The position numbers were made by a program, and so were the translations under genes. A stretch of DNA of 64,000 nt from Blastocystis sp. Blastoise (taxonomy: Eukaryota > Sar > Bigyra > Opalinata > Blastocystidae): contig JBBPEB010000032.1 of assembly GCA_039096225.1 (NCBI GenBank), positions 124,001 to 188,000 on the forward strand, in the 5' to 3' direction. Positions 3,019-60,645 of the stretch are shown piece after piece. Under the pieces are notes generated by a model, which worked only from the letters and a program-made list of their open reading frames with translations, made no database searches and had not been told where the DNA came from. Within the stretch, counting starts at the first letter, position 1. Every line of letters starts with the position of its first letter.

Positions 3019-6161
<3,143 letters not shown>

Positions 6162-21759: not shown

Positions 21760-24700
21760 ATGACACTTGTTATGAATAGGTTCATATATTTCTTACTCTT
21801 ATTATCCATTTGCTTTGCTTGTCAAATTGGTGAAATTGAAATTACAGTCCGTAAATACTATGTAATGTATAGTGATGAAGAAAGCTGGGAATTATGGAGA
21901 GGAAATCCTACTGATGGTGTTATGATAGCTTCCTATGAAGCTTCTAGTGACGATGATGACACACTTCGACTTGATACGCTTTGTACTACATCTGGATTAC
22001 ATACTCTTGTTCTAAAGGATACATTTGGAGATGGATGGGGCTATGATGGATACGATGCTTATATCTATGTTGATATTGCTGGATTTACTATTTTTGAAGC
22101 TAGTCTGCCCTATGATGATTCTGATAATACTTATGAAAGACCATTCCCATTCACAGGTACATATACATATTATATATATATATGTTTCAACAATAAGTCT
22201 TCTTCTTTCATTTTTATTCCATTTTTACTTTCTTATATATTATTGTTCATGATATATATATATTCTCTTTCTAAAATAATATACTTTAATATCGTTATAA
22301 AAATGACTAATTATATTAAATCCTTATTATACAAATACATTTTTTGATTCTTTTTTTTTCTCTAGTTGAGTTAGATATACTTCCTAGTGTAACATGGAAA
22401 TATACAGATGCTATTCAGAGTAATGAATCCTGGAAGTCTGTTTCTTTTGATGATTCTCAGTGGTCTTCTGCTGCTTCAAATTCGATGCCTGTATTCACGT
22501 CAACAGTTCGTTATTATCGTTTCCAATCAAATATAATCAACTTAGAAACGATTAACACATTCTTATACAGTTTAAAAACAAATCAAGCTTTTGTTTTTTA
22601 TGTTCAAGGTGTAGAAGTATATAGATATGGTTTACCTATAGGTACTATAACCTCAACAACTCTTCCTAATGCCGAATTATCCAATGAAATCACGAATAAA
22701 GTCATGTCTATCTTCAAATATATTCTTCCTACATCAGGTAATTATCAAATAGCTATAGAAGTTCATATTAATACTGCTTCTATTGCATCTCCTGATGTTT
22801 TCTCTTTCTGTGGAAAGATTGTTGCTGCTACTAGTATTGGTCAATGTACACATAATATTATATTATCAAACAATTCTACTGTTATTGAAGATCCTGTAAG
22901 TACAGATACTTATGATGGTGAAGGTGCTGCATTTGATAATAATTTAGAACTTGCTTATTCTCAAAATGCTAATTCACAAGCAGTTCTTACTTATTTCTTT
23001 CCTACTGGTTATTCTCATTATTTCAATAGTTATTCTATAACCACTTCTGATGAAAATCAATATGGATTTCCTAAAAGTTGGTCTTTATATGCTACTCAAG
23101 ATGGTACTAATTGGATTCTATTAGATTTCCAAACAAATTATGAATTTCATACTACTGAAGAAACAGCTACGTTCTCTTTAGGTAGTAATACTCTATCTTA
23201 TATAGGTATTCGATTAAATATTACTGCTTCTTCTGATGATATTACTCTTGCTGTTGCTGAAGTTCAACTCTATCAATGTAATAAAGCTTATATAGCCCCT
23301 GGTATTAGTTATAATCCTAGTTCTGTCACTTTCTTTTCTATTATTGATACAATTAGTCTCTATCCTGCTAGTAGTGGCTATCATCATTTCACTATTACTC
23401 CTCCTCTACCTTCAGGTCTTTCTATGAATGATTTTGGTGTCATTTCAGGTATGTCTATGAATGTATTTTCTCAAGTATATACTATTTCGGCTGTTCCTTT
23501 TACTAGTAGTGAAAGTTATACTACTACTCTTACTCTTAATTTTGTAAAATGTGCTTCTCCTGATTTTGTTCAAGTAAGACTTCGTAAAATCAATGGCTAT
23601 TATTCCTATGAAGAAAGAGCTATTTTATATAATGAAGATGGCTCTATTCTTTATACAATGCCTAAAATGGATGGTGAAAATTGGGAACATATTATGTGTA
23701 TTCCTTCTCAATCTATTACTGTTATAACTAGTGATACATCCTCTGATGGATGGGATTCAGGGAGTTATTTATATATTGATGCTTATAACTCTAGAAATGA
23801 ATATACTGTTATGAGTAGAATATTAGATTTCTCTGGTGTCTCCACAACTTATAAAGTTAATCTTAAACATATTATTAGTCCCTCGTCTACTTCTTGGAAA
23901 TACTTACAAGGATCCTTACCTGAAAACTGGTATGCTATTACTGAACCTATAGGCATGACTACTTATTCTACTACTACTCCTACTACTACTACAAGTCCTA
24001 TTTGGATATTCCGTCATTCATTTACTCTCTCTCAAAAAACTGAATTCTCTTCTTGTACGCTTCAAGTATTTGCACGTGCTGGATTTATTATGTATCTTAA
24101 CGGCCAAGAAATGTATCGTAAGAATCTTCCTATGGGTATACTATCTACATCAACAACACCTACTGGTGGTGAATCTAATCCTGTTTTCTTTACTGTCAAT
24201 TATCCTTTAGATTCTCTTCTTATTGGAACAAATATCCTTGCTATTGGTATTATTAATATTGCTAATAATAATCCTACAACAATGGATTTTGATGCTACTT
24301 TAATCTTAGATTATCCTAATAGAATGGGTCGTATGTGGGATATAGAGATTTCTGATGAACCTAGTAATTATGATGTTGATAATCTTATTGATTTTGATTC
24401 TAATACTATTTGGAGTAGTACTCCTGTAGGTAGTAATACTATTTCTGTCACTTTATCTTTTACTAACTTCCGTTCTGAATTTATTAATAAATACTGCTTA
24501 GTTTCCTCTCATTTTGAAAGCCGTTATGATCCTTCTGATTGGGGTCTCTTCGGAAGTGATGGAGATCTTACGAAATGGACAATAATATCTAATGTAACAA
24601 ATGCTTATTTTTCAGGAAGAGAACAAGAACGTTGTTTTTATTTACCTGATAATAAGAATAGTTATAGTATCTATCGTTTTTATTTCACAGAAAGTGCAGA

Positions 24701-26876
24701 TATGTCAACAACTGTCAAATATTACTTAGCAGATATTATTCTCTCTAATGAAGATATTGATAGTATTGTTATACCTCCTCTTGCTTATAATATCACTTCT
24801 GCTAAATCTTATGTTGGTATTCCTTTTGTTGAAATTACTCCTAATAGTCCTCTTTATGGTAATTATCGTATTTCTCCTCCTCTTGATGCTCCTTTAGAAC
24901 TTGATACTTCTACTGGTTCTATTCGTGGTACACCTAAGAAATATGTTGCTCCTACTGTTTATACTATTACAGCAAAAGATCCTAAAGGAAATGAATCGTC
25001 TACAACAATTACTTTAAGTGTTGTATATTGTATTACACCTAATGTCTTATTTACAATCAAAGTTCATTCAAATAATTATGGTAATGAAATGAGTTATTTC
25101 ATAAAGAATTCTAATGGAACCATTATTCATCAACACGATAAATTCACAGATTATCAAGATAGTTATTTCCCTTTCTGCCAACCTATTGGTATTTATTTTA
25201 TTACTATGAAAGATAGTTCTAGAGATGGTTGGAATGGTGGTTATATAAAAGTATATCTTGAAGATAATACTGAAATATTATCCGGTACTTTAGATAGTAG
25301 AGAAGCTGAAGCAACAATGAATCTTTCTGTTGGATATGTTATTTCTCCTGTAAAGACAGAATGGACTTATTATGATTCAAATACTTCTCCTTCTTCTGGT
25401 TGGAATACAATATCTTTTGATGATTCTCATTGGACAAAGAATATTCCAGAAATGATGAATAATGCTCAAGGTATAACCCAATATTATAGAAAAACATTTA
25501 TTATTGATAATGTTAACTTATATTCTGCATTAGCTTTTGATATTAAAACTAAATATGGTGCTATTGTTTATATTAATGGTGAAGAAGTATATAGATATAA
25601 TGTTCCTAAAGGTATTGTTACTGAATCTACTTCTTGTATTAAAATATCTCCTGAAATTGTGACTGTAGGTACTTCTGTTTCTTTATCTTTTGGACCTCTT
25701 GTTCAAAGTCAAAATATATTTGCTATTGAAATACATAGAACTTTACTTACTTCTACGTATCCTATGGAATTTGATGCTAGTGTTATGTTATTAGCAGATA
25801 ATAGTTATCGTATTGTTGATGGTATGGCTTCTAGTAGTTTTGATACTACTACAGAAGGTATAAATAAATTATTTGATAATACTTTAGGTAGTTTATTTGT
25901 TGCTGGTCCTGAATGCGTTGATACTACTGTTACTTGGACATATAATAATAATCGTAAAGAATATATCTCTTCTTATGCTCTTGCTACTGGTTATAATTGT
26001 AATAAGAGACATCCTTCTGGTTGGAATATTGAAGGTTCTAATGATAATGGTATTACTTGGTATACTTTAGATACTCAACATAAAATAATGTGGACTCAAT
26101 ATAAACAACGTCGTGTTTTTGATTTCTATAATACTCGTGCTTTTAATGCATATAGAATGGTCGTCACAGAATGTTCTAATCAACCTATAGCTTTTTATGG
26201 TTCTGAAGAAACTAATTGTGATACTTTTGGAGGAAAAGCTGGATTTCAATTAGGTGAATTAAGTTTCTATTCAAAACGTATTGAAAGTTCTTGTCCTGAA
26301 ATAGATGGATTCCATGGTGCTCTTAATGGTTCTTATGGATTTAAAGATTGTTCTCCTTATTATGCAGGTAGAATAGAAGCTTTATGTACTAATGGTACTT
26401 ATACAAATCCAAAAGAAATATGTAATTTATTGAAACCTCAAGGTATAGAATATCCTTCTAATGTTATTTCTGTAATACAAGGAGAATATTTCCAATTTAT
26501 TCCTAAAGTTCTAGCTGCTAATTATACTTGTGAATTAAATGATAATATTCCTCATGGCGTTACTTTTAATAGTGAAACTGGTGGTTTTAGTGGTGCTACT
26601 CAAGCTGTTTTCTCTGCTATGACAATTGGTGTTACTTGTAAGAATAGTAAAGGATCTTTTACAAAAGAAATATCTATTATATCAAATGAAAAAGTAGGTA
26701 TTCCTTATTGGGGTTGGATTATTATTGGTGTTCTTGTATTAATTATTGTTGCTATTGTTCTTTTCTGTATTATTAATAGATTGAAATCAAAGAAGAACAG
26801 AGGTCATAGTAAGTTACCCAATAAAATAAAGTCTGCTACAAAATCTACTAAAGATACGAAAGCTGTGAAGATCTAA
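21760..26876 (+). CDS. Giant type I surface protein 1 (DGW / jelly-roll / F5-8C-like / Ig modules)
   Basis: This is a predicted cell-surface receptor or adhesin of about 1635 residues. There are two exons, 21760-22156 and 22366-26876, joined by GTACAT...CTCTAG. ATG 21760 or the in-frame ATG 21772 precedes a signal peptide (FIYFLLLLSICFAC). The ectodomain repeats one block three times: a DGW module (KDTFGDGWGYDGYDAYIYVD; DTSSDGWDSGSYLYID; DSSRDGWNGGYIKVYL), a jelly-roll with WxY...SFDDSxW and YiNGxEvyR motifs as seen in bacterial galactose-binding-like domains, a discoidin-like module (HPSGWNIEGSNDNGITWYTL), and a He_PIG-type putative Ig fold. A Cys-rich segment and a last Ig fold precede one membrane helix (GWIIIGVLVLIIVAIVLFCI) and a Lys-rich tail of about 33 residues. 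Many NxT/NxS sites are present. Ligand unknown. Confidence 0.85.
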
Positions 26877-33214: not shown

Positions 33215-36200
33215 TTAAACAGAATTAGTATTAATTTGCTTAAATTCAATATTACTATAAGTAGAACGACTTGTTGATTCATTCGAATGTGATTTCAGTC
33301 GATTTAAGAATGACTTAATATGTTTATTACTTGTGTTTTCTTCAATTAATGATTTAGTTAACATAGATTGTTTATTTGAATCAAATATATATAAAGAATT
33401 AGAATGAAAACGAGAATGTTTATGATGTAAACATTTAGAATTAAATAAATAACATACTATTAAAGTAATTACTATAATACATAGAAAACAACCACTTAGA
33501 AGTAACCATAAATAACGAAAACCATGGTTATCATTAGAATTATTCGTATATTCAATTATATATACATTATCTTCTTCTATATCAAGTATACATATAATAA
33601 AATATTTATCTATTTTCTTTAATGAATTTTCTAATGTAGTTTGTATTGTTTCTAATATAGGAATATATAGAGACGAAGAATTGGATGGAAGTTCAATACG
33701 TAATAGAAAAGAAACAGAAGATGATGTAATTATAGCAGCTTGTGTTAATGTTCTATTCACAACAATAATAGAGTCTTCTTGTAAAGAAAAAGAAGACAAT
33801 TCTTTATATAATATATTATACATGAAAAATAAATATTTTGGAGAAAATGATGACATTTGAATATTCTTTAAAGTCATGGGAATATATACATATACACTGC
33901 CTTCAGGTGGAATACCCACGGGAGACCCTGTTAAACATTGTGAATTATTAACAGGAGACCATTCAATAATATCTTGATCAATAGTACAAGCTCTGGATTG
34001 ATATGAATTCGACGTATTATTACAATATAAATAAGAAACATCACCTACTTTAGTTATAGGCCAGATACCATCGGATCTACATGTGGGAATAATCACGGTT
34101 ATATTAAGATATATAGAAGTATTATGATCTGGATTAGAAGCAGTAATCATATATAAACCTGAAGAGATAGAAGATAATAATGAAGAGGAAGATGATGAAG
34201 AAGAAGAAGATGATAATGATGAAGAAGAAGAAGATAATAATGAAGAGGAAGATAATAATGATGAAGAAGAAGATGATGATGATGATTCTATTATTTTATG
34301 AGCATTTCTATTACTTATAATACTATTATTATCCTTCATGATTATAGAATTCTCATTTGGTTTATATTCAGGATCATCATCCTGTACAATAGGAGTTCCA
34401 GTAATAATTCCCGTGGTTTTATTAAAAAATAAGCCTTCAGGTAAAGAAGGTTGAATAGACCAGGAAGCGATATAATACTCTGTAACTGGTATTATCGGAG
34501 ATATAGACACATAAGAATAAAATATATAATCTGAATATGGATAATAAACAATAGGTTGTTTATATATACATAAATCAATCACTTCTTCCCATTTTGGAGG
34601 GATTGAATTCGTACAATGGCGGGAACGAGATCCCTCTAAATTAGGATCTAAACATAATTGTGTTTCTGTGTTCCCCTTGCTGACTCCTTTCCATAAACCC
34701 TCAGGTTCACAACGAATATCTAATATTTCAATAGCAATACTTCCAGCTTCTTTTCTTGTTTCTTGATTAATATATATATTATATATAATAGTCGGAAGAT
34801 TAATTTGAGGAGTACCATATATAGTTCCTGTCTTTTGATCTAAAAACATTCCCTTGGGAAATGATGGTATAGACTCAAAATAATTACATTTTCCATCACA
34901 GGTAGGAGTAAGAGGTTCTATAGGAGAATTAATATCAAGAGATAGATGAGTAATAGGGTATAGAACATGAGGAGGAATAGGAGAACAAAGAGAAAATATA
35001 TCACCCCAACGAACAGGATTCTCATAACAAAAACGATATATAGCACCAATTGTATTAGTATCATTACAAGGTAATTGAAGAAATGTATTTACGGGTGTTA
35101 ATATCCAATCTCCATCAGTATCACAATATACATCGACTACAGAAAGAGTAATAGATCTAGATACACTATTATAAAAATTAGATGCAGTAATAGTATAAAC
35201 AATAGAAGATGAATTATGGGAAGGACTTCCAAGAATTGTTCCTTTATTAAAGAATAATCCATCAGGTAACTCAAGATCAATTGTCCATTTATCGATGATT
35301 CCCGTGGTTATTGGAGATATTTCTTGAAAATGATGAACTCCAAATGTATAAATTGAGAATGGATAAATAAGAGTAATGGTATAATTCATATAAGTACATA
35401 AATCTATAGGATCAAACCAAAAAGGTTTATTATCAACAATAATACAATCTCTGTACTGTGTTCCAGTTTCTAACGGATCACAACTCAATACACTTGTAGT
35501 ATTCACTAATGTTAATGGCCAATATCCTTCTGGTGGACAATATAATGGAATATCTGTTCCAGTTATAGTAATAGTAATAGAAGTAGATAGAGTACCTAAG
35601 GGATTGACAGCATGTATTTTATATACTGTAGAATCTTGAGAAAATAATGGAACTCCCGCGATTATTCCCGTGAATCTTTGGATAGTGATTCCTTCTGGTA
35701 AACGAGGTTCTGAAGTGAAAATATAATCAGAATAATTAAGAGAAGGAATAAGAAAAGGAATAAGTGGTTCTAAAGATTGATTTACTTTATAATTATAAGA
35801 AGTATAATTATAATAGAATAGAGACGGAGCTTGAGAAGCACAATAAGATTCTATTGGTGAAAGAAGAATACCATAATGACACAAACGTCGTCGATGTCCT
35901 ATTTGATTATATAAACATGGTAAAAAGGAATATTGTCCTTCAGGAGAAATAGGCCAACCATCTTCTGTTTTTGAACATAATTGACCAACTGGTTTATACT
36001 CTAATTTAAATTCTGATAATTGATAAGGTTGATTCTTACAGAATTCTATAGAAGAAGTATCAATATTTTTATTCACACATTGAATAGTAATAAAACGGAA
36101 CGAATGATAATTCTTTGTTGGATAGATTGAGTATTGTTTTTGTTCATTATATGAAGTATAGAGTTGATCTAATTGAAAAGACAATGTGTCCCATTGTTCG

Positions 36201-39200
36201 TCATCATTCGAAGCTTCTAGAATATATCCTGAAGGTGTTCTTTCCGTACAATTTCTACTGTTAAAGATTGAGTAAGATGTTGGATATCGTCGATCATAAG
36301 AAGAATCGAAAGAATAGATAAATGAACTAAAATAACAAGAATTCATTTCCCAATTAGTTGAAAGATCATTATCAATAATATAGGATAAACTATCATTTAT
36401 AGTTGTATTAGAATCGGAATAAATAGATCCTTTTGTTAATATATTTTGTTCATTATTTAATGGAACAATAATAGCCGAGAAATATATATACACCGTAGAA
36501 GATTGTGAAAGAGATAGTATAGAAGAAGATGATGAAGATGATGATAATAATAATGATGATAAAGATGAAGATGAAGATGATGATAATAATGAAGATGATA
36601 ATAATAATTGTGAATGTGATAATAAATTCAATGATACTTTATTATATGTTTCAAAAGGTTCATTACCACAAGGTAATAATTCTAAAAATGAAATACAATT
36701 TAATCCATTATTTACGATTTCATTATAAAATTCAAAAGATATATAAATAATAGCATATTTCTTTTTATGATTTCTATAGAGTAAGCATGTAGATTCTGTT
36801 ATATTTCCTTCAGGAATATTAATTCGATTAATTTCATTTCCATTTAAATAAAGAATAATTCCACCAATATAAGTCACTTCAACAAAAAATCCGGAATAAT
36901 CTTCAACAGATGGTATATATATAATTGTACGAAAATAATGAATATGTCCTTTAGAAAGTGGAAAAAAATAATCTCGTGATTTCAGCCAATCAGAATCATT
37001 ATAATTGACTAATGTCCAATCAGGAAACACAGGTGAGATATCATTTTCATTCAGTTGGTAACTCCAAACTAAAGAACTATCATCTGTTTCTCTTTCGATA
37101 TGAAATGATATTATATAAGGTCGTTGATCTATAGAAGTGCTTATATCTGTATAAGATTCCATAATTGTATGATTATTTGATAATAAAAATATAGTTGTAT
37201 CTTTATCTCCCCATCCTTTCCTCTTATTATCTTCTAAAGCAATAAGATAATCTCCAGGAGGAATGCAATATCCTTTATGAATCACACTAGGAGCATAAAT
37301 ATCACTAATAATATCTATATATCGTGATGTATCATTCTTAGTATATAAATATAATGATTTTGATATAGAATCACTGTTCTTTCGATTCGTTATATAGATA
37401 AAGAATGGAGTATTTGGTATAGAACAAATAGTAACAGAAATAAGGAGTGTTGTATTATAATAGACATCATCATCTCCTAAAGCTTGTATTGTTAACATCA
37501 CTTGAGGAATATATATAGCAGGACTACCATAAATATTACCACTATTACTATCTATATATAATCCTTCAGGTAATACTCCTTCTTCTATAGAGAAGAATGA
37601 ATATCCTGAAGACGCCGTTACCCGCGGGAATTGGAGATCTCGATAACTAATAACAGAAGAAGGAGTGTATTTAAGGGGACTCATAGTTGTATTTTTATTT
37701 CTATAGGAATTCATTTCAATTTCATGGATTTGTATATATTGTTGACTAACAGTATTATCACTCACAAAAATATCGTCACGAAAATCACGGTAAAATATAA
37801 ATTTATACATATTATAAGCTTCTGTATGAGGCATAGTATAAAAACATCGTTTTTGAAGTCGATCTTCCCATTGAATATTTGTATAATTACCTAGAAATAT
37901 ACAATGTTCTTTATTTATACATCCAAAGAAAGACCATGATGTAGGATCACACTCAGTAGAATCACGACTACTTGTTAAACAAAATGTATGAATATATTCA
38001 TAACGAAGAGGATTCTCATAATATAAATACATATCTACAGAAGTATCGATAGATTCCAGTGGTAAAGAAAAGGATGTATTATTAGAAGATGAAAGAATTT
38101 GAAAAGAATTTCTTGTTGAAAAAGTATATAGAGTATTATTATTATTATGTTTATTATTATTATTATTATTAATATTATTAATATTATTAATATTATTAAT
38201 ATTATTATCATTATCATACATTTCTTCAGTTTTTGTTTTTCTCGATGAATCTTTGAATTCATATCTCCAATATGTTTTATATACTAAATCAACAAGATAA
38301 TTTCCTATATGAATATTATCATTATCAGCAATAACGGACATATCCCAACATCGATTATTATGTATACTATCTTTAATTAAACGAGCAGTAAAAGAAGTAG
38401 ATAAAGAAGTAGGTAATGATAATGGATTTATTATAGAAGCAAAAGCTATTATATTGGCTCCTTTAATTAAATAACTACTTGATATAACTACATCTCTACC
38501 TGAGAATGTAGTCATTGATGAAGTAGAAGTAGTATTATAATCAACAAAATCATCTTCAATAAATGTTTTATAGACTACTTTATTATTTATATAAAGAATA
38601 AATGAATAGGATGAATAGATTCGAAATAAGATACTATCATATTGTTTTACATAAGGAATATTAATTGTTACACGATAGAATTGTACAGATGTTTGAAGAA
38701 GAGGAGGAGGAGTAGTAGAAAAACAGGAAGTCCATGGATCATTCTTTATATCAGGTATATAATCATTTGTATACCAATTAGAAGGCATACTAGATTCTCT
38801 ATTTAATAAACATAATACTAAAGAACTTCTATATGGAATTATATATTGAAAATTTAATGGCATATCTAATTCTGTTCCTGTATCTAATAATACTCGATTT
38901 AATGTATAATTCTCATAACTATTTGATAAAGAGATAGTCAAGGAACTCTTAGAAGACCACCCTTGTTGAAGTTCTGTATATAATACTAAAAAATAATTAT
39001 CATAAAAAAAAGTATGATCTAAAGAATAAGGTGTATTTGTAATAGTATCATGATATTCTAATACAATTTCTTTATTACTATTCAGAATATAGAAATGTTC
39101 ATAGCTAGAAGAATATGAATTTGATGTTTTTAAAAATGTTACAGACATAGTATTAGAATACGTACATATACTTGTATTAATATATATAGATATAGATTCA

Positions 39201-40946
39201 ATTTGAGAATAAGTATTTGTAGCACTAATAACAATAATTCCATTCCAAGGAATAGAAAAGAAGCCAGTTATAGTTCCAGTTTGTTCAGATAATGTTAGAT
39301 TTGAAGGTAATATTAATGGATAAGTATTAATAAAATGAGTATATCCAGAAGAAGTAGGAGGTATAAATAGATTATCATTAACACATAAATTAAATACATT
39401 ACTACTATATAATAATTGAGATCGAATAATATTTGAATTACCATAGAGAATTATATTACATATTTGAGTTTCATTATTTTCATTATAAGTGGATACAACT
39501 TGAAATCGTATTTGATGATAAGCTTTCGTATTTGAATATACAGGAAACACTTGTTTTTGTTTACGTCCTGTAAATTGTTTTAATTGTAGAATCATAATGA
39601 GTTCCCACTGATTATTTATTTGACTACCATATAATGCTATTTCTTTAGGATCATTTCGTTGAAAAGCAAAGCCACTAACAATCTCGATTTCATTAAACCA
39701 TTCATAATAATTCTCTTCAAATGTATATATAAATGAGCAATCCGTGTTTTTACATGTCCATTGAGTACGTAGATTATTGTCTACTACATGATCTGGAATA
39801 TCACTACCAACAGAAGATCCAGAAGTAATTCCACCGTGAATAAGACGAGGTATATGTTGACCATATAAAGGTAATATAAAGAAATCAAATTGATCATCCA
39901 TTATTTGATGTAATTGACTAGGGTGGACTTCTATAGCTATACATATACTATTATTATTATGTATCCATTGTAAAGTTTGTAAGGTATAATAATGATAGGA
40001 ATAAGTAATATCTTCAGTAGTAGCATAAGTATTAGGAGCTATAATAACATTATTTAAATATCGTTTTACTAATTCAACACCATTTATATATATAACATAA
40101 CCTTCTCTTGCATGTATACCTAGTTGAAGAACTGGATATAATGAAGAATCAAAGAGAAATGGAGAAGAATAACGGTAATACTTAGTATGCCCTAAAGATT
40201 GAGGAAATAATCCTGGGAAATAAGAAGACCAACGAGTATCATCAAAAGACATCGATTTCCAATCATTATTATATTGTGGACTACTTGTATACTGCCAAGT
40301 AGAATTCTTATATATAGAAAATTGAGCTATAGAAAAATCAAATAAAACTCTATTGAAATAGCAAGTATTTTTTAGAGACATGCAGATAAAATAAATAAAA
40401 AGGATATAAATAATATGTATAATATTTTTAAAAAAACTTATAATAATTGTAAAAAAAATAAACTATATTAAAAATAAATTACTATTAAATGCCCATAAGT
40501 AGGATGCACCAATATCAAGTCTATCTTTTATAATTCTTATTTTATCTATGTCTACATAGAAAATTGACTCTGGAGACCATCCTTGAGAAAGTCTAAAAAA
40601 AAGAAGATGAATGATTTATATAAATATATCAAATAACTTACGAATCATATCCACCAATAGTATATAAGTCTCTAGATACACATACTGTATAGCTTAGAGT
40701 AGATAGATCATTATTTAAACCACTCAAAGAAATGATAACATCTTGATCAATAGACGTACTTCTGAATAAAGTTAATCTTTCTTTGTATGACTCTTTTCCA
40801 TACGTCCTTGTTATGTTTAATAATATTTGATCACTTGGACACTGACTCTTTACCAAAATTGCATATAAACCTATAATAAAATATTGAATACTATGCAAGA
40901 GATTCATACAAATTTCGATAAAGAATAAAATGGAGTAAGTCACCAT
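33215..40946 (-). CDS. Giant type I surface protein 2, paralog of protein 1
   Basis: This is a predicted surface receptor or adhesin of about 2508 residues. Exons are 40946-40642, 40592-40483 and 40326-33215. The apparent start near 40381 falls inside the second intron. The N-terminus is hydrophobic (signal peptide, about residues 14-34), then a degenerate DGW module that reads DSLSQGWS across the first splice. Blocks of jelly-roll (MSFDDTRWSS, YINGVELVKR), discoidin-like and putative-Ig modules repeat about three times, as in protein 1. The second half adds five Cys-rich repeats with a CxxxGxW...C...R.C...W...C pattern alternating with Ig-like modules, and a poly-Ser tract near 34160-34290. 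One membrane helix (YLWLLLSGCFLCIIVITLIV) and a tail of about 75 residues end the protein. The shared module order with protein 1 shows common origin. Confidence 0.84.
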
Positions 40947-44886: not shown

Positions 44887-47078
44887 TTATAAATCTTCTT
44901 CTTCTTCTTCCTTTTCTTCATTACGATTTTCTCTATCTCTCTTTAAAGATTCTTGGAATTCTTCTTCACTCATTTGTTCAGCATTAGAACTATCGAAATG
45001 TATTTCTTGACCTTCTTGAGCCTTAGGAGCTTCAGGAGTTTCAGGAGCTTCAGGAGCAGCAGTAGTAGTTTCTTCTTCTTCTTCATCTTTAGTAACTTCA
45101 ATTTCAGGAGCTAAATCAAGACTATCAATATTCATACCCTTTTGCATCATAGAATAAACACGTTTAGCAAAAGCTTCAGGTTCAGTAATCATAAAGCCAG
45201 AATTCATTAAAGAACTATCAAATAATAAATTAGCAAAAGCTTTAGCAGTTTCATCTTCAGCATCAGCCTTAACCATATTATTAAGTTCAATAATAATAGG
45301 ATGTCTAGGATTAATTTCAAGAATCTTCTTAGCTTGCATATATTTAGCTCTTTCAGGATTTTGAAGAGCTTGAGATTTCATAATTCTTTCCATAGTAGCA
45401 GAATAACCCCATTTAGTAGTAGAGAGAACAGCAGGAGCAGATTCTAATCTTTCAGAAACTTCAACCTTTTCAACTTTATCACCAAGAAGTTCTTTCATCC
45501 ATTTAGTTAAATCTTCAAACATAGATTTATATTGTTTAGTTCTTTCTTTAGCTTCATCAGCTTCATCACCAAATTCAACACCTTCCTTAGTAATATCTTG
45601 AAGAGTCTTACCATCAAATTCCTTTAAGTTTTGAACAACATATTCATCAATAGGATCAGTGAAATATAAAACTTCAACATCTTTCTTTTCGAATTTTTCT
45701 AAGAAAAGATTATTCTTAAGATTTTCAAGATCTTCACCAGAAACGAAATAAATTTGTTTTTGCCAATCTTTCATATTCTTAACATATTGTTCAAGAGAAA
45801 TCCATTTATCATCAGATTTAGTAGATTTATAACGAAGAAGTTTAGAAAGTTTATTTCTATTAGCAGAATCTTCAATAACACCAATCTTAATATTCTTACC
45901 AAATTGTTCCCAGAAATCTTTATAATCAGTCTTTTCTTTTTCTTCAGTTTCAGTAGTTTCTTCTTCTTTAGTTTCTTCAACTTCAGGTTCAGTAGCTTCT
46001 TCAGTTTCTTCCTTTTCTTCTTCTTCAGGTTCATCTTCACTAGCAAGTTTCTTAATCATTTCAATAGCTTTACGAACAAGTTTCTTACCCATAACCTTAA
46101 GAACCTTATCTTGTTGTAATTGTTCACGAGAAACATTAAGAGGAAGATCATCAGAATCAACAACACCAACTAAGAAATTAAGATATCTAGGAATTAAATC
46201 TTCAAAGTTATCTTGAATAAGTACCTTACGAACATAAAGACGAATATTAGAAATCTTTTTACTATAGAAATCATCATAAAGATCAGAAGGAGCTTTAGAA
46301 GGTAAATAAAGAATAGCTCTGAAATCAATTTCACCTTCAGCCTTAAAGTGAATCCAAGTTAAAGGATCTTCTTCACCACCTTTATTAAGAGTTTTATAGA
46401 AATTCTTATATTCATCATCAGAAATTTCAGATTTATCACGAGACCAAATAGCTTTTTGTTTATTCATTTGTTCCCAACTCCAAACAGTCTTTTCTTCAGT
46501 TCTAGTCTTAGGTTTTTCATTTTCTTGTTTATTTTCTTCTTGATCTTCAGCATTAACTTCTTCAATATCTTCACCTTCAAAAACATCTTCTTCCTCTTCT
46601 TCTTCTTCAATAGGAACTTCAACAGTTTCAGTATGACTCTTATAAAGATAAATAGGGAAAGTAATAAATTCAGAGAATCTCTTAATAAGTTCTTCTAATT
46701 TAGCTTGATCTAAATATTCTTTAGCATCATCCTTAAGATAAAGAGTAATTTCAGAACCATGAGTAAGAGTATTACCACGAGGATCTTCACCTACAGTAAA
46801 AGTACCATCAGCACTAGATTCCCAAACATGTCTATATAAAAATATAATATTAAATATTCATATTATTTATATATTTTTTAAATATAAATATTATTATAAA
46901 TCAGTTCTCAAAGATGTCATCAATAAAATCAGACATACGCTCGAATATTATCCTCATATAATAATAATAAAATAATAATAATAATAAATAAAATAATAAA
47001 ATAATAAGATTCAGGTCTCAAAGATGTCATCAATAAATCAGACATACGCTCGATTGTTTCCACATATTCAAAAATAAA

Positions 47079-47143
<65 letters not shown>

Positions 47144-48119
47144 TAATAAAAATAATAAAAATAATAAAAATAATAAAAATAATAATAATAAAAATAATAA
47201 TAATAAAAATAATAATAATAAAAATAATAATAATAAAAATAATAATAATAAAAATAATAATAATAAAAATAATAATAATAAAAATAATAATAATAAAAAT
47301 AATAATAATAAAAATAATAATAATAAAAATAATAATAATAAAAATAATAATAATAAAAATAATAATAATAAAAATCAGACTGCGCTAAGGCTGTCAACAG
47401 TATAAATGTTCATGTTAAAAAGGCCATAAACAAATCATCAAGTTATTTTTTTATTTATTATTTTTAATATTAAAATATATTATATATATATATATAATTA
47501 TATACTGATCACTATCAACAGTCTTAGAAACAACACGAACCTTATCAGAAACAAGATAAACAGCATAGAAACCAACACCAAATTGACCAATTAAGTTAAG
47601 ATCAGCACCTTGAGCTAATTGTTCAACGAAATGAGTAGTACCAGATTTAGCAACAGTACCAAGATGTTCAATTAAATCTTGTTTAGACATACCAATACCC
47701 TTATCAGCAATAGTAAGTGTACCCTCAGCTTCATCAAAAGAAATACGAATATCAAGTTCATCCTTATTTTCACCTTCTAAAATACTAGAATCAGTTAAAG
47801 ATAAGAATCTAATCTTATCAATAGCATCAGAAGCATTAGAAATAAGTTCACGAAGGAAAACATCTTTATTTTGATATAAAGAGTTAATAAGAATATCCAT
47901 TAAACGGTTAACTTCAGCTTGGAATTCAAAAGTTTCAGGATTCTTCATAGTTTCTTGTTCTTTTTCAGTAGTTTCAGTTTCAGTAGTAGCCTTGAAATCA
48001 GCAGCTTCTTCAGCATTAACTTCAGATTCAACTTCTTCAGCTCTTACAGGAACAAAAGCTGGGAAGCCTAAGCAAATAATAGCAACAATAGCAAATATAA
48101 AACTAGCTCTAACTTTCAT
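44887..48119 (-). CDS. HSP90B1: ER Hsp90 chaperone (GRP94/endoplasmin)
   Basis: This is an ATP-dependent chaperone of the ER lumen. Exons 48119-47506 and 46831-44887 give 852 residues. The signal peptide is [21 protein letters not shown]. The N-terminal ATPase has [37 protein letters not shown] and [15 protein letters not shown]. The acidic charged linker precedes the middle domain ([43 protein letters not shown]). The C-terminal dimer domain ends in an acidic run and EEDL. The chain lacks a canonical KDEL or HDEL, so ER retention by that route is not obvious. The single 674-nt intron splits the ATPase domain after DSDQ, is longer than most in the window, and holds C/D-like elements. Heat-shock-like dyads lie upstream. 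Confidence 0.96.
46897..46962 (-). ncRNA. Candidate intronic box C/D snoRNA, copy 1
   Basis: Reading the sense (minus) strand of the GRP94 intron: a C-like box ATGAGGA (46957-46951), then CTGA (D', 46932-46929), TGATGA (C', 46922-46917) and CTGA (D, 46904-46901). TTATTATA and TATAATAA flank the two ends and could form a terminal stem. The spacer before D, CATCTTTGAGAA, is complementary over ten bases to the conserved TCTCAAAGAT of the 18S rRNA 5' region. Box order and spacing fit a C/D snoRNA, but A+T bias makes boxes and stem easy to find by chance. Confidence 0.45.
47006..47072 (-). ncRNA. Candidate intronic box C/D snoRNA, copy 2
   Basis: This is a second copy of the same element about 110 bases upstream in the transcript. 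It has ATGTGGA (C-like, 47065-47059), CTGA (D', 47041-47038), TGATGA (C', 47032-47027) and CTGA (D, 47014-47011). The core of about 40 bases is nearly identical to copy 1 while flanks differ. The guide next to D, ATCTTTGAGAC, is complementary to the 11-base 18S stretch GTCTCAAAGAT. By the D+5 rule the predicted target is the second C of GTCTC. Confidence 0.5.
47070..47375 (-). repeat. 15-bp AT-rich minisatellite inside the GRP94 intron
   Basis: TAA repeats on the plus strand pass into about fifteen copies of an AAAAATAATAATAAT unit. The array separates the two kinds of C/D-like element. On the sense strand it is T-rich, like the other intronic tracts. Confidence 0.9.
47370..47446 (-). ncRNA. 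Candidate intronic box C/D snoRNA, unrelated sequence
   Basis: This lies nearest the donor end of the GRP94 intron. On the sense strand TGATGA (47440-47435) begins and CTGA (47378-47375) ends a block of 66 bases. That block is much less A+T-rich than its surroundings, with a GACAGCCTTAGCGCAGT segment directly before the D box. Size and box placement fit a C/D snoRNA. No rRNA target was recognised from memory. Confidence 0.42.
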
Positions 48120-55825: not shown

Positions 55826-58902
<3,077 letters not shown>

Positions 58903-59612: not shown

Positions 59613-60057
59613 CGCCAAATAGGTTGTCTCTCGGCTTTAAAGCCTTTTTCTAGAATTCCAATAAAGTCGGAGAATCGCGGTATTCTTAACAAAACGTCCA
59701 TAGAAAATGATGTCTGCATCTCTTTTTAACAAAATTTCTATAGTGAAAATCTATGAATAATTACGGTTTTATTTTTTCTTGACATTTATTTTTTTGACCA
59801 TACAATAGACCTTTCATTCTTAAAAAAGTTTACACACTTTTGATAAACATTATCATTTTACCAATTGCACAATGAAGTATAAGTATGTATTTTCCTATCT
59901 ATAGTCAATAATTACTGTCATTTTTTCTTGAACGCATGTTCAGAAGTGACTCATGTTCAATTTTGTGGATTTGTCTACAAGTCGCTTTTTTTAATTCTAT
60001 TGATGCTGTGTAGAACAAACAGACATCTATCTACATTTAATTAAATGATTCTCAACC
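59613..60057 (+). promoter_or_regulatory. Upstream region of RPL26
   Basis: This contains TGACTCA (59947-59953), the AP-1/GCN4-type bZIP site, about 105 bases before the RPL26 start. A TTTTTAACAAAA-like motif occurs twice near 59690 and 59730. No TATA position could be fixed in such A+T-rich DNA. Confidence 0.35.
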
Positions 60058-60645
60058 ATGTTTCTGTATAACAATTCTGTTTCCTCTCATCCCCGTAAGC
60101 AACGTAAGGCTCACTTCACTGCTCCTTCTCATATTCGTCGTATCAGAATGAGCGCTCCTTTATCTAAGGCTCTTCGTGAAAAGTACAACGTTCGTTCCAA
60201 TTATTCTACACATATTTTTTTATTTTTTAATCATTAATATTTATATTATTGCTATAACTAATTATTTCTATATTTCTTTTTTCTATTATGATGTCATTTT
60301 ATAAATATTTGATAATCAAAATAATTAAATAATTATTTATATAAATTTATTATTATCAACGTTCGTTCCATGCCTGTCCGTAAAGGTGATAAGGTCATGA
60401 TTGTCCGTGGTGATAAGGCCAAGACTGAAGGAACTGTTACTGAATGTTACAGAAAGAAGTACGTTCTCCACATCCAAGGTGTTACTCGTGATAAGGCCAA
60501 TGGTGCTTCCGTCAACGTTGGTATTCAAGCTTCTAATGTCGTTATTACTGATCTTAAGCTCGATAGATCTAGAAAGATCATTCTCGAACGTAAGAATCGT
60601 TCTAACAAGACCACTAAGGATGCTGCTATGGCTTCTTTAGATTAA
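60058..60645 (+). CDS. RPL26: Cytosolic large-subunit ribosomal protein L26 (uL24), interrupted by an atypical insert
   Basis: uL24 binds 23S/28S rRNA near the exit tunnel and is added early in 60S assembly. Start ATG 60058 gives [20 protein letters not shown], then [17 protein letters not shown]. The second part, [20 protein letters not shown] (KOW motif), [20 protein letters not shown] and [19 protein letters not shown], is the rest of the protein. With one copy of the 14-bp repeat and the spacer removed (171 nt) the product is 138 residues and aligns without gaps to eukaryotic L26 (YNVRS-MP). The insert carries in-frame stops and no AG, so ordinary splicing cannot remove it. The second half also has its own ATG at 60370. 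Identification is certain; how the mRNA is made is not. Confidence 0.93.
60186..60370 (+). other. Non-canonical intron or insertion in RPL26 with 14-bp direct repeats
   Basis: CAACGTTCGTTCCA occurs at 60186-60199 and again at 60357-60370. Between them lie 157 bases of A+T-rich DNA with no AG dinucleotide anywhere. Removal of one repeat plus spacer restores the conserved YNVRSMP reading. Possible cuts include GTTCGT...CAAC (GT-AC). None is GT-AG, GC-AG or AT-AC with known consensus. Confidence 0.85.

Follow-up and report, generated by a model that had tools for sequence, protein, structure and literature searches.

The window analysed here, a 64,000-nt stretch of the Blastocystis sp. Blastoise assembly, contains an RPL26 gene whose coding sequence is split by an insert that lies between direct repeats and holds no AG dinucleotide. 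The question that it raises is how the two coding halves come to be joined, and whether the assembled letters at the ends of the insert are those of the cell. The features of the gene are the following (window coordinates):

59872..59882, + strand: exon 1, ATGAAGTATAA, an M-K-Y-N start followed by a GTATGT donor; homologs start with MKFN, MKYN, MKLN or similar.
59883..60071, + strand: intron 1, 189 nt, with a GTATGT donor, a 3′ end reading TATAA and not AG, and a 6-nt repeat, GTATAA; no GT-AG register.
60072..60199, + strand: exon 2, with the left 14-nt repeat copy at its end, placed from sequence, homologs and inference; letters of exon 3 may lie over the donor in its final nucleotides, the exact cut not being fixed.
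60186..60199, + strand: left copy of the repeat CAACGTTCGTTCCA, from direct reading and repeat search.
60200..60356, + strand: AT-rich 157-nt spacer, the interior of intron 2; no AG, and no close copy found in the genome.
60357..60370, + strand: right copy of the repeat CAACGTTCGTTCCA, from direct reading and repeat search; judging from paralog pairs, probably mostly exon 2 letters lying over the 3′ end of the intron.
60369..60645, + strand: exon 3 to the stop codon TAA; the exon start is uncertain within the repeat.

The split RPL26 gene

The sequence-only reading had described an exact 14-bp repeat with copies 171 nt apart, enclosing an AG-less spacer of 157 nt, and this proved correct letter by letter. 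The two copies of CAACGTTCGTTCCA were recovered by direct reading and by repeat search, and the spacer between them is composed of 86 T, 56 A, 11 C and 4 G. Together, one repeat copy and the spacer form a 171-nt unit that splits RPL26 at the codons for YNVRS. Removal of this unit had been said to restore a conserved junction; the resulting 13-residue join does fit the conserved uL24 sequence, and the joined RPL26 protein (uL24) matches Pfam PF16906 (E = 4.5e-37). None of the 15 possible cuts of intron 2, as assembled, gives GT-AG; one register is GT-AC and none is AT-AC. A scan of the whole window with Rfam returned nothing at gathering scores.

The lack of AG in the spacer is by itself unremarkable and constitutes weak evidence: G occurs only four times in the spacer, and 17% of 20 000 shuffles of it were also AG-less (P about 0.17); AG was likewise absent from 59 of 254 stretches of the window with similar G content. 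The 14-nt repeat does mean something: it sits at a junction of conserved sequence and was the longest match in both scans for repeats at coding gaps (one of 264 kb, the other of 264 kb plus 25 kb). These scans gave 10 matches in 264 kb and 44 in 289 kb, the latter against 7 and 8 with shifted frames. Apart from RPL26, the matches listed, judged by eye rather than worked out one by one, seemed to be repeats that arose by chance in genes whose introns are ordinary.

A second AG-less junction, missed by the sequence-only reading, lies upstream in the same gene (ATGAAGTATAA / 59883-60071 / CAATTCTG). Here ATGAAGTATAA codes for MKY and part of N, matching the conserved start of RPL26, and the next exon begins at 60072, after TATAA. 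The best reading of intron 1 is that it is another ordinary intron with ends overwritten in the assembly. The 33.3-Mb assembly yielded one RPL26 locus; a second intact copy, which had been proposed as something to look for, was not found in it, and RPL26 presumably works because only this locus was found. Relatives that are 67–71% identical to the joined protein are 136-aa proteins, some of them on contigs of up to 305 kb, which suggests that RPL26 is uninterrupted at this place in those organisms, the prediction route of the proteins not being stated.

Elsewhere in the window, two very long open frames with He_PIG putative Ig domains occupy 22320-26876 (+ strand, 1518 aa) and 33215-40462 (− strand, 2415 aa). 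Long microsatellite tracts of TTA or TTATT type were seen at 4015-4634, 47008-47405 and 56098-56779; the second lies between two exons of an HSP90 gene, and several chaperonin introns also carry such tracts.

Junctions of ribosomal protein and control genes

Single-protein and family searches supplied RPL8, RPL10 and RPS23 (two copies each), RPL30, RPL7A, RPL3, RPS12, SNU13 and NHP2. The L7Ae family itself came from a search; RPL30, RPL7A, RPS12, SNU13 and NHP2 are named after what we take to be the corresponding human proteins. Nine chaperonin genes (CCT/Cpn60 family) formed the control set. At each junction the joined exon sequence was set by protein conservation, read by hand, and every register was then listed; an automatic intron caller forces GT-AG and was therefore not used for the counts. 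The ribosomal protein sample comprised 31 junctions in nine gene copies from six families, with one junction counted for RPL7A. Intron 1 of RPL3 (two copies) looks AG-less but can be read in two ways, and the counts exclude it. The chaperonin sample consisted of 49 joins, not all introns of the nine genes, of which 48 were located; the last join of L033 is GT-AG in an automatic scan.

No GT-AG register exists at 19 of the 31 ribosomal protein junctions, and each of these 19 carries a direct repeat of 2–15 nt. By gene, the junctions without GT-AG number 2/2 in RPL26, 5/10 in RPL8, 5/10 in RPL10, 6/6 in RPS23, 1/2 in RPL30 and 0/1 in RPL7A. When junctions are counted by intron position, paralog copies not being independent, 12 of 18 positions are affected. 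The sequence-only reading had proposed a search for other genes with repeat-flanked, AG-less inserts; they occur in five of the six families counted (the single RPL7A junction being the exception), in two cases with a canonical paralog. Among the chaperonins, one junction in 48 was found to lack GT-AG (47/48 canonical), versus 19 of 31 in the ribosomal protein genes (Fisher P = 2e-9, computed with 1/49). The odd junctions are thus concentrated in ribosomal protein genes. Repeats of at least 5 nt are present at 15 of 31 ribosomal protein junctions versus 1 of 48 chaperonin junctions. The repeat measures 15 nt in one RPS23 copy (TGAAAAGATTGGTGT), 9 nt in RPL30 and in one RPL10 copy, and 8 nt in RPL8; at five of the 19 it is only 2 nt long, a length also common in chaperonin introns.

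In the contrast of 19/31 with 1/48, transcript abundance is assumed from the class of gene. The defect also reaches one junction of SNU13: SNU13 and NHP2, non-ribosomal members of the L7Ae family, lack GT-AG at one of six junctions. EF1A, beta-tubulin and actin were included as non-ribosomal controls with abundant transcripts, but their matched parts are free of introns, which leaves abundance inseparable from the ribosomal protein class here. Outside the ribosomal proteins, two junctions without a GT-AG register were seen, one in a chaperonin (L038, on contig C34, KDHFAK/LAV) and one in SNU13 intron 2 (L050); at both, the initial letter of the following exon seems to stand where the donor G should be. 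The L038 junction was not recognised in the repeat scans, only later. Of 30 single-intron chaperonin gaps, an automatic scan marked 13 as odd, in most cases through a stop filter that extended into later introns; on visual inspection, L038 was genuine, L037 (family positions 329/323) was ambiguous and not counted, and the others were GT-AG.

The letters standing in place of GT or AG can equal those of the partner exon at all 19 odd ribosomal protein junctions (repeat of at least 2 nt, five of only 2 nt). Eleven of the 19, including RPL26 intron 1, retain a GTAT donor, and two retain AG. The 3′ ends of introns are affected more than the 5′ ends, in gene orientation and on both strands; overwritten donors occur at RPL10 intron 4, RPL8 intron 2 and SNU13 intron 2, and some odd junctions have no register that starts with GT or ends with AG. 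One register of RPL8 intron 2 is AT-AC. Canonical introns are found within the same genes (RPL8 introns 1 and 3, RPL10 introns 1 and 5, RPL30 intron 2). Paralogs are alike in the absence of GT-AG at RPL8 introns 2 and 4, RPL10 introns 3 and 4 and RPS23 introns 1 and 3; at RPS23 intron 2 the two copies are affected differently while the protein junction is the same.

Runs of A were also noted at transcript ends. Runs of 5 to 8 A precede a poly(A)-type motif 3′ of the stop codon at L043, L044, L045, L048 and L041, the last being an RPL3 copy in which the run was noticed by eye. Twelve genes were given to an A-run test and ten had the motif; the test did not include RPL3 or the RPS23 copy L046, whose locus was too short. 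Runs of at least five A just before the motif, which was chosen after the 3′ ends had been seen, occurred in 4 of the 10 genes versus 23 of 1006 background sites. With four stricter, overlapping poly(A) motifs the background was 1/27, 1/29, 0/17 and 1/14 (3/87 in total). RPL26 was negative in this test, and at least the RPS23 and RPL7A motif matches are doubtful. Poly(A) tails copied into the assembly would leave such runs, and so could a natural A-rich signal.

Origin of the odd intron ends

Two odd introns have an unaffected paralog, and in both pairs the unaffected copy is GT-AG and ends in TAG; RPL26 has no paralog. In RPL10 intron 2 the last letters are CTATAG in L045; in L044, whose upstream exon ends CGTTG, they are CTGTTG, and one further base differs between the two introns. 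For RPL8 intron 5 the end reads TAAATAG in L043 but TAAAAAA in L042, where CAAAAA closes the upstream exon. From these pairs it appears that the ends of exons were copied onto the ends of introns. Polishing with spliced reads was imitated by a toy model (match +1, mismatch −4, end bonus 5, majority vote), which was run on these two testable introns only and which, starting from the canonical copy, needed exactly two rounds in each pair to reach the odd end that is observed. Worked by hand, RPS23 intron 1 and RPL26 intron 1 stop earlier than the model, and RPL8 intron 2 and RPL26 intron 2 need more rounds; since some introns need fewer rounds and some more, the actual procedure was not as simple as the toy model.

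Several of these genes exist as two similar copies on separate contigs: RPL3 (C3, C2), RPL8 (C29, C7), RPL10 (C2, C33), RPS23 (C14, C16), EF1A (C8, C25) and NHP2 (C7, C29), with RPL8 and NHP2 being neighbours on both C7 and C29. The near-identical RPL10 intron 3 paralogs L044 and L045 differ by 35 nt near the 3′ end, beside the odd end. Equal-scoring ribosomal-protein-like pairs were also seen between C9 and C12 (C9:15524-16120 with C12:2909-3505, and C9:986-1198 with C12:17831-18043), within the first 18 kb or so and in opposite orientation; they perhaps represent a shared duplicated region or organelle-type ribosomal genes.

The RPL26 insert is very probably an ordinary spliceosomal intron whose ends were overwritten in the assembly by the adjoining exon ends, by way of RNA-derived reads. 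Such overwriting would create a direct repeat and remove both GT and AG. We infer that RNA-derived reads were the cause and that the cellular DNA has GT-AG here. The most likely step is consensus building or polishing with spliced-RNA reads, or the use of DNA reads contaminated with cDNA: reads crossing a junction would be placed on one exon, their short overhang would lie over the intron end and out-vote the genomic letters, and every round of polishing would lengthen the overwritten tract. Genes with expectedly abundant transcripts, such as those of ribosomal proteins, would be affected and chaperonins largely spared. The 3′ bias would suit reads that share their 3′ ends and differ at their 5′ ends, that is, long RNA or oligo-dT cDNA reads. 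An artefact is favoured because real copying should destroy the splice sites of essential genes, yet the exons are conserved and there is no second RPL26 locus. Against it, simple short-read polishing predicts symmetric ends, which 5′-truncated long RNA or cDNA reads do not, and the pattern also touches a single junction each in the chaperonins and in SNU13. The sequence-only reading had listed an assembly artefact among its options; a faulty assembly is supported for the intron ends, and not for the insert as a whole, since the intron is probably real.

The available account of Blastocystis subtype 1 gives 98.3% of annotated introns as U2-type GT-AG and 346 introns as U12-type, typically AT-AC (PMC5608401). 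Like U2-type introns of Blastocystis, the RPL26 insert is AT-rich and lies between conserved coding halves, 11 of the 19 odd junctions have a GTAT donor and the canonical paralogs end in TAG (2/2); unlike them, intron 2 as assembled has no GT-AG register and carries a 14-nt direct repeat. U2-type GT-AG is the likely origin of the intron before overwriting and not the class of the assembled letters. Nonconventional introns of euglenids have repeats at their ends. They share with the odd junctions variable, non-canonical borders, as far as these are described in PMC4770533. In euglenid introns an RNA structure brings the ends together; the RPL26 insert has no significant one (folding z-score 0.29, with 110 of 200 shuffles folding at least as well). 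Its repeats are consistent with copies of the neighbouring exon ends, and other odd introns have canonical paralogs; the euglenid-like intron considered by the sequence-only reading is not supported. Consensus errors from polishing with RNA reads place exon letters in intron ends. The present pattern may resemble them in falling mostly on genes expected to have abundant transcripts and in the A-runs at some transcript ends; some tracts here exceed in length and asymmetry what simple short-read polishing would give.

A real class of repeat-flanked introns, in which the 3′ site would be a copy of the upstream exon end and not AG and removal would depend on a modified spliceosome or some other system, agrees with the spread over 12 of 18 positions and five of six families, with the GTAT donor at 11 of 19 junctions and with the RPL8, RPL10 and RPS23 paralogs that are alike in lacking GT-AG. 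AG-independent, repeat-guided removal would then have to operate in the most expressed genes beside GT-AG introns in the same transcripts, which we consider unlikely: canonical introns stand in the same genes, near-identical paralog introns differ at their ends by TAG-type versus exon letters, the repeats vary from 2 to 15 nt and share no constant sequence, the ends of the RPL26 insert are not brought together by a stable structure, some junctions have no register with either a GT start or an AG end, and the A-runs before poly(A)-type motifs are left unexplained. The DNA itself would have changed if truncated reverse transcripts of abundant mRNAs had recombined with the genes and converted the last intron letters to exon. 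This would strike abundant transcripts, and cDNAs cut short would act mainly at 3′ intron ends, as observed; we nevertheless judge it very unlikely, as it should make introns of essential genes unspliceable (no second RPL26 locus was found), does not explain the overwritten donors of RPL10 intron 4, RPL8 intron 2 and SNU13 intron 2, and is accompanied by no long conversion tract in four aligned paralog intron pairs.

The sequence-only reading had also raised an insertion with a target-site duplication, a GT-AC intron and split translation. A recent insertion, by a mobile element or as break-repair filler, with a 14-bp target-site duplication would account for the perfection of the repeat, and the 136-aa proteins of homologs suggest no intron at this place. 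The spacer has no near-identical copy elsewhere in the genome, the other matches being AT-rich and 69–76% identical (very common words skipped), and the same copying of exon ends, with other repeat lengths, recurs at introns of four other ribosomal protein families, which makes an insertion highly improbable; similar junctions in RPL8, RPL10, RPS23 and RPL30 rule out a unique de novo insert. U12-type introns do exist in Blastocystis, and a GT-AC register in RPL26 intron 2 and an AT-AC register in RPL8 intron 2 could be read in favour of a U12-type or GT-AC intron. This is extremely improbable given that RPL26 intron 2 has neither an AT-AC nor a GT-AG register, that the U12 donor and branch-site consensus were not seen in it by eye, and that the repeats go unexplained. 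Split translation, or ribosome bypassing over the insert, could draw on the ATG at 60370-60372 that begins the second half; there is no other sign of it in the sequence, splicing is favoured by a pattern that recurs at many introns and retains a GTAT donor in 11 of 19, and the probability of split translation seems to us close to negligible.

Public gene models and consequences

Two public gene models are damaged at these junctions. The protein closest to the joined RPL26 is the public model of this gene from Blastocystis sp. Blastoise itself, which starts MFLYNN and is without the conserved SMPVRKG (seven residues), a shape that would be expected if a GT-AG intron had been forced through the region. 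The public RPS23 model on C14 gains two residues and is without GCLNFVDENDE (eleven residues) at two odd junctions; a 98%-identical RPS23 protein from another source (a 625-nt contig) is gap-free over all 145 residues of the joined exons. Among the papers listed in literature searches, none was by its title about the Blastocystis sp. Blastoise genome or about such an error.

If overwriting in the assembly is the true explanation, a public 34-contig genome contains splice-junction errors in highly conserved genes, and these have passed into gene models. Surveys of non-canonical introns, of intron gain or of ribosomal protein phylogeny that draw on this assembly could be misled. Direct repeats at the ends of ribosomal protein introns, together with A-runs at poly(A) sites, are suggested as a diagnostic for other assemblies. 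If, on the other hand, the DNA truly reads as assembled, Blastocystis would possess a new form of intron removal.
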